Shown here one piece after another: positions 16,494 through 62,565 of a stretch of DNA of 64,000 nt. Within the stretch, counting starts at the first letter, position 1. The number at the start of each line of letters is the position of its first letter. Below the pieces are notes generated by a model. That model did no database searches. It saw only the letters and a list, made by a program, of their open reading frames with translations, and was not told the DNA's origin. The translations under genes were made by a program, and so were the position numbers. The stretch comes from Gammaproteobacteria bacterium (GTDB lineage Bacteria; Pseudomonadota; Gammaproteobacteria; Pseudomonadales; Azotimanducaceae): positions 1-64,000 of the forward strand of contig DUBB01000031.1 of the NCBI GenBank assembly GCA_012960535.1, written 5' to 3'.

Positions 16494-18023
16494 TTACTTA
16501 ATTCTACGCCGCCTGCCAGCTCGGCCGCGATGACCTGGCTGGGCTTTCGGCATCGGCGGTTCAGCGGTCGGAAGCAACTCGGGTAGTGCGGTCTGGCTTT
16601 TCAGCCCCGAAACAATTAAAGCCCGCATTGCAGCATCGATATGAGGGTCCGTTTCGAAAGGCGTATAGTTACGCAGCCTTTGCTCAACCTGCCTATTAGC
16701 CCGCTGCTGCAGTTCTTCCGATCCCGCCTCTTCCCAGCTTTCACGGTTTAATCGGTCAAAAACCGGATCAGTCAGGTAAAGCTCATTAGGCCAGTGCTCA
16801 AGGGTATGTGGCGAAGTAATCAGGTGATCGTCTTGAATCAATTCTTTAACCAACTCTTCGGTGGGTAGATCACCCTGCACTTTAATTTCCCGAACGAAAT
16901 GAAGCGACTGCCCACATATCTCGTTATCAAATACGAGTTTAGCTAAGCTGAAGGTGAGTACGAAATCCAGCATCCCCGGGCCTGAAACGGAATTTATACC
17001 TGCAATCGCAGCCAGCAGGGCACTGCTGAAGCTCTCCCCACCTGCCTGCGCATCGAGTAATTTACTGTCGCTGAGCGCCATGTATGCCTGAGTTGGCAGA
17101 TTCAGAGACTTGGCAATTGCAACATAAGCCACATTGAGGTGCTGCGCCTCAATGGCCGCCATGGGAGAACTGGCAGCCTTCATATGAAAAGTGGCAGGTG
17201 CTCCACCAAACAGAACCGGTGCACCCGGCCTGATAATCTGTGCCATGGTCAAACCAGATAGCACATCAATACAATGAAACACCAGCGCGCCAACCAGCGT
17301 GACCGGCGCAATAAGCCCCATCAGGGTTACCGGTACGATCTCGACCGGAATACCCGCTTCAACACAATCCAGTAAATTCTGGCAGGAATCTTCTCCATAA
17401 CGGAAATTACCGGTCGCAGTGATAGTGAAAATGGCCATAGGTCGGTCAATCAAGTCTTGTCGATCGTTACGGAACATCTGTAGCATTTCTGCCATTACCG
17501 GTACGCCATGTTCACTGAATGCGCCGGACACGACCGGCTTTTTTGATGAAATCAGCGTCATGTAGAGTCGCCATGCATCTGACACCTGGGACTCAATATC
17601 ATGATTAGTTGAGAATGCCGTTGCCAGGTAAGCAATATGCTCCAGACCATCACAGAGCCGGGCATACTCAATGAAGTCGTTTGAGTCCGCCAGCCTGACC
17701 TGCCCATTCCTGTGGTCAAGAATCTTTAATCCACTGGAACCCGGCACGTAGTGCACATTATTACCACCAATTTCGGTATAGAAGTCACCATCCCGATTGA
17801 AAAGTGAAAATGACTTAGGGGTGTCTGCTATAGCCCTGTCCACAACATGCTCTGGAAAGAGTATGCGCTGGCTGACCGGATCCGCCCGCAGGCCATGATC
17901 CAGCAACCGCTGCCTTAGTCCGTTGCCACGTATTTCGATACCAACCTCTGCCATCAGGCGTTTTGCTTCATCCAGAATGCGGCTGATCATAGTGTCGTTC
18001 AGGGTCTGTAATAGTGGTCGCAT
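16494..18023 (-). CDS. MttB-family (non-pyrrolysine) methyltransferase, copy 1
   Basis: A 509-residue member of the trimethylamine methyltransferase superfamily (PF06253). Members move a methyl group from a methylated amine, such as glycine betaine, to a corrinoid protein. Recognisable parts are [16 protein letters not shown] near the N-terminus, [49 protein letters not shown] and the C-terminal [26 protein letters not shown] with [10 protein letters not shown]. There is no in-frame amber codon, so it is of the MtgB-like, pyrrolysine-free kind. It lies 22 bases behind copy 2. No corrinoid-protein or corrinoid-activating gene is present in the window. Confidence 0.9.
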
Positions 18024-24438: not shown

Positions 24439-24678
24439 TCACAAATCCAGCAGCACCACTAACCGGTCCGGGATCAGATCATCTCCGCCGTAGATCTCGC
24501 CATTAATACTTAGCGCAGGCGCACTACGAATGCCCTTCTCCTGCATCAATTTAGCGGCTGCTTCATCCACCATCAGGTCCCGAACCTCAAAGGCCAGTCC
24601 TTCTGTCGTCAAGATGCGCTTAAGTACCTCACACGGTGCACACAAGGGTGTGGTATAAACAATAATCTTTGCTTGCAT
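24439..24678 (-). CDS. Glutaredoxin-like thiol-disulfide protein
   Basis: A 79-residue single-domain glutaredoxin fold with the redox pair CAPC in IIVYTTPLCAPCEVLKRIL, a cis-Pro region at IRSAPAL and the GGDD turn near the end. It begins three bases after the stop of the selenoprotein gene, on the same strand, so the two are surely co-transcribed. It is therefore a likely thiol reductant or partner for the selenocysteine site; this is inference from position. Confidence 0.9.
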   Translation of the reverse strand: MQAKIIVYTTPLCAPCEVLKRILTTEGLAFEVRDLMVDEAAAKLMQEKGIRSAPALSINGEIYGGDDLIPDRLVVLLDL

Positions 24679-24681
24679 GAA

Positions 24682-25566
24682 TCAGCTTTCGCTCGATTTC
24701 AGTTTACGATACCGTTCTTTAGCAGCCATCCAGTTGTCATAGGCTTCTCCTTCAAGGAAGGGCTGCTCCTGCGTGAAAATCGTTTCTTTCCAGTTTTCTC
24801 CCTGAGGCCAGCTATAGGGCGCGACCACGGTCTTGCCTGGCGCATCGGCCGACTCCAGCAATCCCAGCGCTATATCCAGGATACTCGACTGCATAGCCTT
24901 ATCGAAGGGCACACCACAAGGGTTGCCCAGAGGAAAATCGACAAATACCAGCCTCGGTACGCCGCAATATTCAACAATATCGCGCGCGGTCGCGATCATC
25001 ACTGTCGGGATGCCATTATCCTCCAGGTAACGGGCTACCAGACTCACGGTCTGGTGACAAACCGGTCACACGGGTGTGAGGACAGCAATATCCACTTCAT
25101 CCTCTCGGCACCTTTTCAGTACTTCCGGGGCATCCGATTCCAGTGTTTTCTTCTGGCTATAGGCTGTGTAAACACCATGGCAACGTGGCGCCATACTACT
25201 GATTCGTCCCTGCTGGACCTTCTCCTGCAGACGCGTCACGGGAAAATAGGAATTCACATCATCGAGGTGGGTCGCGTGCTGATCAAAATGTTCCTGGCGG
25301 CTAAACAATCTTTCTACCGGCGTATTGGTGGGTATGCTATAAGCATTACCGACCAATAGTTCATCGCTCTTATCGCGCCCTTCACCATTAGCATTACTCA
25401 CAGCAACATCACTGGTCGACACCAACGCGACGCGGCACTCAGAAAGCGGCTTGCTAAGCCGACTGAAAGGGATATCCTCAAAGTGAGCCCATTGGTAAGG
25501 TTTTTTATAGCCCTGGGAAAGATAGTAGTCTCGGGTTCGGTCAATGTACCTGACTGGATCGCTCAC
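24682..25566 (-). CDS. Selenocysteine-containing GrdB/PrdB-like reductase (U-P-V-C), TGA read through
   Basis: A single 294-residue reading frame, provided the TGA at 25066-25068 is read as selenocysteine (U167). Before it comes RCREDEVDIAVLTPV and after it PVCHQTVSLVARYLEDNGIP, the exact setting of the redox-active Sec in the selenoprotein B family of glycine, betaine, sarcosine and D-proline reductases (PrdB/GrdB). Reading continues in the same frame through PRLVFVDFPLGNPCGVP. A SECIS-like hairpin follows the TGA. The start is GTG with GGAGG 7 bases upstream. The family reductively cleaves C-N bonds in anaerobes; the substrate here is unknown. A CxxC glutaredoxin follows at once, and a methylated-amine island adjoins. 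The Sec synthesis genes are not in the window. A frame-broken pseudogene is unlikely because coding continues intact. Confidence 0.88.
25037..25055 (-). promoter_or_regulatory. Bacterial SECIS-like hairpin of selenoprotein gene 1
   Basis: On the minus strand ACCAGAC-CGTGA-GTCTGGT forms a perfect 7-bp stem with a 5-base loop. There are 17 bases between the TGA and the loop, within the 16-37 range known for bacterial SECIS, and the second loop base is G as the rule requires. The same structure occurs at 62048 in the second gene. Confidence 0.8.
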
Positions 25567-25893
25567 GGTTATCCTCCGGAATTAATAGAACTTCAGAATA
25601 GAGACTACTCCTTGCTACGGGTCTCAGCAATGGTATGGCTAAAACGTGATGCCATTGCCCCCGGGCGGCAAATTAGGGCTCACTAATATCAGCCAACAAG
25701 CACAGCGAGACTTGAACAAGACCCGGTATCGCAGACAGCATTTACAGGCCCATACAGCCAACCAAAGACTGACGGGCTCACAATCAAAACCGAAAACCGT
25801 CATTTCAGAGTTCGGCGAATGGTGCACTTTAAGTGCCTGAGCAAACCCAGATCATGCCCAGACATTCAAAGTCGCTGTATTACCAAGCAGCTA

Positions 25894-60766: not shown

Positions 60767-61774
60767 CTACTTTTTACCGCACACCCGCACCAGTATGCCT
60801 GGGATAAATTCGTGTACCTGAATATCGGTGAAGCCTGCCTGCCTGAAATAGGAAACACAGTCTGCCCGGGTATGGGTCATACCCGTACTATTTGACATGG
60901 TCTCGTACAGTCCCCAGATTGCTGCATCAAGGGGACCGGCACGATCATCATCGAGCATCTCTCCAATCAAGTGCATCTCTCCACCCGGTAATAGCGCATC
61001 AAATGCCTTACCAATGACCTGACCGATGATCTGGGAATTATACTGGGGCAGATTACTGGCCATAATGGCCAAATCGCAATCGGCTGGAAAATCATCCCGG
61101 GTGAAATCTCCAGCCTGGGTCGAGACCTGCTCTTCGACCCTGTGCTTGGATATGAATTCTTTAGTGATTTCAACAACCGGTGGCAGGTCGAAAACGACAG
61201 CTTTAAGGCCTGGGTAGTGCTGTGCAGCCACAATTGAATAGGCTCCGGATCCTCCTCCCAGATCCATCATCTTTGTAGCGGAAGACAGATCAACCTGCTT
61301 CGCGAAACGGCGCCCGGAACCAAAACCGACGCTGGCTGTTGCCTCATGATATCTGCGGGCAGCCTCCACCGTCATGGTCTCATAGCTGCCAATCACCGTC
61401 GCAGGTTCAGGGTTAGCAAGCTTTTCAGTGAGCTTGCCCCAGTTATCCCAGGCTGGACGGGTAAAGGTCAACCAGGCGGCAGCGTAACTTTTTTCACCTT
61501 TAACCAAAAATCGCTGTACGTCTTCTTCATTTTCGAAGTGGTCACTATGCCAATGAAGCAATCCCGATGCGGCACACATGGTCATCAGGCGATCAGAGTT
61601 GACCTCTGTGATACCAGCTCGAACAGCGAACTTGCCTACCGTATTGTCACCTTCGGCAACGCAGGTAAAAAGTTCAAGATCAATTGCTGCAAAAAGACTG
61701 GCAGAACCAATGAAGGCTCGGCTCATATTCTGCAATCGAACCGTATCTACCTTCGTACTATCGGTATTTTTCAT
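60767..61774 (-). CDS. SAM-dependent O-methyltransferase (acetylserotonin/hydroxyneurosporene type)
   Basis: A 335-residue enzyme with an N-terminal dimerisation winged helix (FIGSASLFAAIDLELFTCVAEG) and a C-terminal Rossmann methyltransferase: MMDLGGGSGAYSIVAAQHYPGLKAVVFDLPPV is the SAM site, then QAGDFTRDDFPADCDLAIMASNLPQY and LLPGGEMHLIGEML. These are the marks of PF00891. The substrate is a hydroxylated small molecule or, by context, an acceptor linked to the selenoprotein. Its ATG overlaps the stop of the selenoprotein gene (ATGA), so both are made together. Confidence 0.92.
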   Translation of the reverse strand: MKNTDSTKVDTVRLQNMSRAFIGSASLFAAIDLELFTCVAEGDNTVGKFAVRAGITEVNSDRLMTMCAASGLLHWHSDHFENEEDVQRFLVKGEKSYAAAWLTFTRPAWDNWGKLTEKLANPEPATVIGSYETMTVEAARRYHEATASVGFGSGRRFAKQVDLSSATKMMDLGGGSGAYSIVAAQHYPGLKAVVFDLPPVVEITKEFISKHRVEEQVSTQAGDFTRDDFPADCDLAIMASNLPQYNSQIIGQVIGKAFDALLPGGEMHLIGEMLDDDRAGPLDAAIWGLYETMSNSTGMTHTRADCVSYFRQAGFTDIQVHEFIPGILVRVCGKK

Positions 61775-62565
61775 GCAGCTGTGCCCGACCTGCCTGTGAA
61801 ATATTCAACCGGGGTCGGCCAGCTGTCTGACCAGTCCTCCAGGACACCCCCTATTTCAACTTCCTCAAAAAGCTCAAGCGCACGGCTGAGTATGGCTGTC
61901 TGCTGGTCTGCATTAAAAGGCTCACCGAAATTGTTTCCCATGGGGAAATTGACAAACAGACTCCTGGGTGGCTTGACCTGAGCAGTCAAGTCCCTTCCGG
62001 TAGAAATACATACAGTCGGTATGCCCGCCTGCTCAACAACTCGACATACCAGACCCACGGTCTGGTGATCTAAGGGTCACGCCGGCGCGGCGACCAGCAG
62101 GTCTACCTCATCTTCGCGCAGACATTTAATGAAAGTCGGGATCGATTCTTCTATTAATTTAGTTCGGTTGTAAATACGACCCATAAATCCGCTCCAGAAC
62201 CTGGGTGCTAAATCACCCAGGACACCCGCCTTTTGCAGCTCCCTTAATCGGTCAATGGGAAAGACACAATTTAGATCCTGGTCAGCATCATCATGATTGT
62301 AATAACTGTCATTGATCTGAAAATCGCTGCTATCAACTTCCTGATCCACTGCATCCAGGCGATGATCATTTCTGGCATCAGGATTAAAGCCGGGCATACT
62401 GCACAACGAAATCCCTCCAGAGGTTAACATCGTCACCCGACTCGCTGACACAGCTTTGTGGGGTTTTACCAAAGGTGCACTGTCATTAATGGTCCACTGG
62501 TAGGGCGGAAACCCCATGGATCCGTAATGCTTGTTTAATTCTTCAACATAATTGATCGGTTTCAT
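61771..62565 (-). CDS. Selenocysteine-containing GrdB/PrdB-like reductase (U-P-L-D variant), TGA read through
   Basis: A 264-residue product if the TGA at 62077-62079 is read as selenocysteine (U163). The frame continues without break: CLREDEVDLLVAAPA-U-PLDHQTVGLVCRVVEQAGIP, then PRSLFVNFPMGNNFGEPF. It matches the first copy at FPxxRLxE, LAPR, the Sec region and DFPxGN/NFPMGN. The Cys three residues after Sec in copy 1 (UPVC) is Asp here, so a selenenyl-sulfide pair of the usual kind cannot form. An excellent GAGGAGG precedes the ATG. The stop overlaps the O-methyltransferase start. A SECIS-like hairpin follows the TGA. The substrate is unknown; the family splits C-N bonds of glycine, betaine, sarcosine or proline. 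Confidence 0.87.
62048..62066 (-). promoter_or_regulatory. Bacterial SECIS-like hairpin of selenoprotein gene 2
   Basis: ACCAGAC-CGTGG-GTCTGGT on the minus strand: a perfect 7-bp stem, five-base loop with G at its second place, 17 bases from the TGA to the loop. It differs from the hairpin of gene 1 by one loop base only, whereas the 10 bases between TGA and stem differ freely (CCGGTTTGTC and CCCTTAGATC), so the stem is under selection. Confidence 0.8.

Follow-up and report, generated by a model that had tools for sequence, protein, structure and literature searches.

A probable PrdB-like selenoprotein encoded beside a glutaredoxin in a bacterium of the Azotimanducaceae

Selenoproteins resembling PrdB have been reported repeatedly from the sea. 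The 2005 Sargasso survey recorded 42 marine 'PrdB' selenoprotein genes with a UXXC motif (Zhang 2005, PMC1088965), the 2008 GOS survey 235 Sec and 110 Cys 'PrdB' sequences (Zhang and Gladyshev 2008, PMC2398784), and both reports place 'proline reductase' among the most abundant selenoproteins of marine metagenomes, in agreement with the original prediction, which has such proteins noted in marine surveys. The terms 'operon' and 'gene cluster' are absent from the text of the 2005 report (PMC1088965) and from the main text of the 2008 report (PMC2398784), and 'paralog' is absent from the latter. For the clostridial enzymes, attack of a selenolate on the substrate has been described (PMC13188914), which is the basis of an analogy used below. 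Here we analyze a related gene in a 64,000-nucleotide stretch of DNA (the window) from a gammaproteobacterium of the family Azotimanducaceae.

The gene lies on the minus strand at 24682-25566, with a GTG start preceded at a distance of 6 bases by a GGAGG ribosome-binding site (25573-25577, minus strand). Under translation table 11 it appears as two minus-strand frames, 25566-25066 and 25047-24682, which become a single frame of 294 residues if the TGA at 25068-25066 is read through. This TGA is codon 167 and would be decoded as selenocysteine, U167 of UPVC, so that residues 164-173 of the product read TPV-U-PVCHQT. The two frames split by the TGA had been predicted to form one PrdB-like protein whose downstream part has no start signal of its own; both points hold, since read-through gives one frame and no signal comparable to GGAGG was found 5' of the first GTG of the post-TGA frame. 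The selenoprotein stop (24684-24682) is followed by the spacer TTC and then, at 24678, by the ATG of a 79-residue glutaredoxin on the same strand (24439-24678; PF00462, E 1e-10), confirming the predicted three-base gap to a CxxC glutaredoxin gene, here in the form CAPC.

The TGA is conserved among homologues. In an alignment of 57 homologue rows, a few of which duplicate one locus, 56 reach codon 167 (L043 ends short of it); 53 of the 56 have TGA, and the remaining three (L032, L035 and L036) have TGC or TGT, providing the Cys-containing homologues that had been sought at residue 167. A manual count across 97 relative genomes found exactly one TGA in 143 of 146 matches, a set that takes in weaker, longer GrdB-like frames; the three exceptions are G040:C181 with no TGA, a G009 fragment ending before the site, and G012 with two TGA and one TAG. 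The longer frames of the relatives are open over about 400 aa, show weaker similarity and contain one TGA (e.g. G050:C1:2343202-2343816 and G011:C117:7034-7648); they are probably GrdB-like, and the search of the relatives' genomes returned none from the window's own genome. Homologues run on past the TGA rather than all ending there, and dN is alike before and after it (0.134/0.131 for L019, 0.173/0.158 for L020, with synonymous change near saturation), so that coding similarity is unbroken through the codon as predicted. In close pairs, dN/dS before and after the TGA is 0.016/0.070 for L018 and 0.041/0.149 for L021, higher after it and far below 1. These sequence comparisons indicate that purifying selection persists past the TGA.

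Immediately downstream of the TGA, at 25037-25055 on the minus strand, is a bacterial-SECIS-type hairpin with a 7-bp stem, spanning bases 13-31 past the first TGA base. The bacterial SECIS rule describes a hairpin just past the TGA with a small apical loop containing a G (PMC1088965); the loop of the window gene, CGTGA, agrees with it. Over a set of 55 Sec genes that takes in paralogues, 92.5% of the 385 hairpin cells are paired; the outermost pair fails in 20 of the 55 genes, where it is A-C. Pairing falls to at most 33% when the partner strand is slid out of register, and the observed pairing was reached in 0 of 10000 trials in which 3' halves were swapped among genes. The covariation score was reached by none of 500 shuffles, with three pairs changing on both sides; of the five measures, the two that count pairs altered on both sides and additional pair types were reached by 41 of 500 shuffles. 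Codon choice follows the same pattern: of the 44 Sec genes with Ser at residue 175, 43 encode it by AGT, compared to 12% of Ser codons elsewhere in the same genes, and all three Cys genes use AGC; the rows behind this count are kin and not independent, so that its p-value is nominal. In L040, L056 and L059, residues 173 and 175 are both altered and the hairpin pairs are retained, while L042 and L072 have one pair broken each in this region; the three Cys genes still have 17 of 21 cells paired. Folding relative to a synonymous-codon control gave a weak contrast (mean z -0.35, 56 TGA genes), partly because the same hairpins had supplied its codon table, and the hairpin was judged by pair counts and codon choice in place of this control.

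The genome also holds the Sec machinery on which the prediction depended. Profile matches above cut-offs were obtained for selA (570 bits), selB (426 bits) and selD (252 bits, cut-off 125), and a tRNA-Sec scored 49.8 bits against an Rfam threshold of 47. ARAGORN labels this tRNA gene tRNA-Lys(ctt); since the Rfam alignment gives the loop CUUCAAA, we read the anticodon as UCA. The selA gene adjoins selB, and the tRNA-Sec gene adjoins the selD-type gene, a fusion that is the sole genome match above the selD cut-off and that draws more bits from TIGR04369 'fusion_not_SelD' (463 bits, short of the 700 that this model requires) than from selD. This gene (L017 3642-5870, minus strand) has an N-terminal pyridine-nucleotide oxidoreductase domain fused to it and shares its contig with selAB, which is about 36 kb away.

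SelB and the selenoprotein gene occur together across genomes. SelB was found above cut-off in 45 of 56 relative genomes with the gene (G012 having just a weak, interrupted match to the gene), versus 7 of 41 without it; at a completeness of at least 97%, the figures are 19 of 19 versus 5 of 27. The 11 gene-bearing genomes in which SelB did not reach the cut-off, including G006 (96% complete) and G055 (95%), are likely explained by missing sequence. Of 14 additional genomes that carry a Sec copy, a count outside which L019 falls, 13 have SelB above cut-off, the exception being the Hydrogenedentota MAG of L023. Genomes with Cys forms keep SelB in four of seven cases, with none seen in the other three. 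Because Cys forms occur in genomes that keep SelB (L032, L035, L036 and G359), Sec appears to be replaceable. In a class-wide draw, the family was detected at E 1e-30 in 7 of 369 genomes, our own counted, with Cys forms accounting for four of these.

Could the TGA instead be a genuine stop, leaving a broken or two-piece gene? The table-11 ORF list does end at this codon and the second frame does contain a GTG, but the conserved TGA, the constraint downstream of it, the covariation of the hairpin and the Sec machinery make this exceedingly improbable. The window gene (25566-24682) is, judging from sequence, very probably one selenium-containing enzyme.

The pairing with a glutaredoxin characterizes one clade of the family. 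A quick maximum-likelihood tree of the 75 distinct genes picked out by a DNA pattern for UPx[C/D]HQ[T/S], drawn from the window and 76 fetched loci, places the window gene in a 23-member clade (SH-aLRT 100). A related glutaredoxin lies directly downstream in 21 of the 23 members; the two without it are L024 and L029, where a methyltransferase gene stands instead. None of the 52 other paralogues has a glutaredoxin of its own within 2.5 kb, or less at contig ends, a range that a distant glutaredoxin could escape; the second copy of L023 was left out of this number, as its glutaredoxin match belongs to an adjoining clade member. By record titles, the pairs occur in Pseudomonadota, Actinomycetota (including Acidimicrobiia), Chloroflexota and Hydrogenedentota, of which single placements may be wrong because the records are MAGs. 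For 20 of the 21 pairs, the distances of selenoprotein and glutaredoxin were compared and are correlated (Mantel r 0.66, reached in 0 of 10000 permutations), as would be expected under joint inheritance. A single branch within the clade unites the three Cys members, so one Sec-to-Cys change explains them. The adjacency here and in 21 of 23 clade members speaks for the predicted Sec/thiol redox pair in one operon, co-transcription being our inference. A glutaredoxin adapted for reducing a selenoprotein MsrA, reportedly described by Kim in 2011, offers a precedent.

Given these observations, we favor, with a probability of roughly 60%, the reading that the two genes form an operon for a stand-alone Sec reductase with its own reductant, the enzyme being recycled by the operon-encoded glutaredoxin. 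In a structure model of the protein (pLDDT 87.9), residue 167 follows a strand (160-164) and directly precedes a helix (168-183). The Sec167 selenolate, placed at the helix N-terminus after the strand in this predicted fold, would attack an electrophilic substrate by analogy with the clostridial enzymes. Cys170 would then resolve the intermediate to give a selenenyl-sulfide, and the co-encoded CAPC glutaredoxin would reduce the Se-S bond in place of the GrdA or PrdC of the clostridial enzymes, the two genes presumably being co-transcribed. The proposal includes no PrdA-type pyruvoyl partner in the reaction, and for this reason the substrate would not be D-proline by the clostridial route. As guesses, the substrate may carry an activated C-X, S-S or O-O bond, and the reaction may run in the reductive direction. 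Foldseek with the predicted structure found nothing within an E-value limit of 0.001, and VIA-align gave Z of at most 8.6, to LacI-type and Rossmann-like folds; since this is near the commonly seen level, we draw no function from the structure search. A phmmer search for relatives of solved structure returned a chance match only (E 0.71).

The same arrangement of UxxC at a helix start, a glutaredoxin operon and a COX1 gene would also suit a thiol/selenol peroxidase or disulfide reductase that protects against stress, built on a borrowed PrdB fold with the glutaredoxin as electron donor. We regard this as rather unlikely. Around the 75 family genes, the clusters met most often besides glutaredoxin are short-chain dehydrogenases (16 loci), AMP-binding ligases (11) and CoA-transferases III (10), followed by acyl-CoA dehydrogenases (6), all of varied position and strand and with one member per cluster Pfam-checked; such dehydrogenases, ligases and CoA-transferases fit catabolism slightly better, and several diverged paralogues in a single genome argue for substrate specialization.

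As a second alternative, the protein could be a reductase of amino acids or betaine of the PrdB/GrdB type, operating together with a pyruvoyl partner on behalf of the adjoining methylated-amine island. Homology in the core agrees with such a role: the best curated match is TIGR04483 PrdB (E 6e-33), with weaker matches to the GrdB, GrdF and GrdH models, and U167, C170 and H171 align with UGTCH of clostridial PrdB, the UxxCH active-site motif being present. The score, however, is 114.2 bits, under the cut-off of 300 that the PrdB of Peptoclostridium passes at 310.2 bits, and the GrdB, GrdF and GrdH matches all fall below their cut-offs. The GRDB model PF07355 gave no Pfam match for the window protein at E 0.001, while three paralogues in its own genome do match this model. 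PrdA was not found in any of five home-family genomes, including the window's own (93.6% complete), by a search that was positive in plasmid records from Acetoanaerobium and Terrisporobacter; neither of two alphaproteobacterial holders gave a PrdA match, in a search that had no positive control, and a search of the genome with PF09338 gave no match but was also silent in the controls. The GrdB/PrdB label of the original prediction therefore stands as homology and fails as function, the latter on the score and on PrdA. To judge from these profile results, the window protein is very probably not a D-proline reductase.

The island itself points the same way. The window does hold two MTTB genes, a BCCT transporter and a betaine-homocysteine methyltransferase gene, as the second alternative would have it, but L018 and L021, the two closest relatives, are the only others in which these genes recur. 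Because it is confined to them, we take the methylated-amine neighbourhood to be incidental, and the predicted tie to the island falls away; in the flanks available, glutaredoxin is the only neighbour shared across the clade. A function in methylated-amine metabolism was accordingly rejected, its flanking genes recurring only in near-identical relatives, and a reductase of this type with a pyruvoyl partner seems improbable, more so than the peroxidase. Within the MTTB-family gene at 18023-16494, whose frame is open with no stop, Rfam reports a PYLIS_3 match at 16976-17074 on the minus strand (38.4 bits, gathering threshold 38); the neighbouring MTTB gene is at 19569-18046.

The organism had also been described as apparently aerobic, which its COX1 gene supports. 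A haem-copper oxidase gene (COX1) was found in all seven genomes tested, from which we infer an aerobic life for these bacteria.

The own genome contains five PrdB-like Sec genes, two of them in the window. The second (61771-62565, minus strand; TGA at 62079-62077) reads UPLDHQT, with Asp where the resolving Cys would be, and belongs to a 13-member UPLD clade (SH-aLRT 97). Its end is overlapped by an O-methyltransferase gene (PF00891; 60767-61774, minus strand). Of the 13 UPLD clade members, 8 have an O-methyltransferase relative within 2.5 kb, versus 1 of 62 other rows, flank lengths differing between loci, and in four of the 13 (window, L123, L127 and L130) it starts no more than 13 bases from the selenoprotein stop.

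Returning to the stand-alone Sec reductase, we see about even odds that it is part of a wider pattern, in which the PrdB core is a general selenoenzyme chassis in bacteria with haem-copper oxidases, used without a pyruvoyl subunit and split into clades with different partners: a two-gene unit that includes its own glutaredoxin and has spread across phyla, and a UPLD clade that has lost the resolving Cys and is often near an O-methyltransferase. Openly licensed literature yielded no description of the Sec/glutaredoxin operon, in line with the prediction that this gene order is undescribed, nor of the UPLD variant with Asp for the resolving Cys. If the chassis reading is true, it implies a class of Sec reductases that operates apart from Stickland fermentation and is abundant in the sea and misnamed; if marine 'proline reductases' are of the window kind, their annotation and the amino-acid metabolism inferred from it would be wrong. 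The conserved pair is a defined two-protein system for asking what selenium is used for by oceanic bacteria that have respiratory oxidases.

Three known systems are close enough for comparison. First, the marine 'PrdB' selenoproteins (PMC1088965, PMC2398784) share with the window protein a Sec in UXXC, homology to PrdB and an origin in marine bacteria, and likened by description, not sequence by sequence, they very probably include the window family; the reports call these proteins proline reductase, that of 2005 together with its reaction. Second, proteins of Roseomonas haemaphysalidis and Haematobacter massiliensis named 'glycine/sarcosine/betaine reductase selenoprotein B family protein' are 43-47% identical to the window protein by tblastn and have CPVCHQT or CPICHQT, with Cys in place of its Sec; no glutaredoxin appears in the adjoining gene table of these loci, which is incomplete. 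These Cys forms (L139 and L140) are on plasmids, one beside a selO gene, and the strains are possible laboratory models. Third, clostridial PrdB (TIGR04483) has a collinear core like that of the window protein, and the TGA is present in all three compared. The two differ in that identity is 28-33%, with the window protein scoring under the TIGR04483 cut-off, and in that the window protein, unlike clostridial PrdB, has a C-terminal extension, a glutaredoxin partner and a COX1-bearing host.
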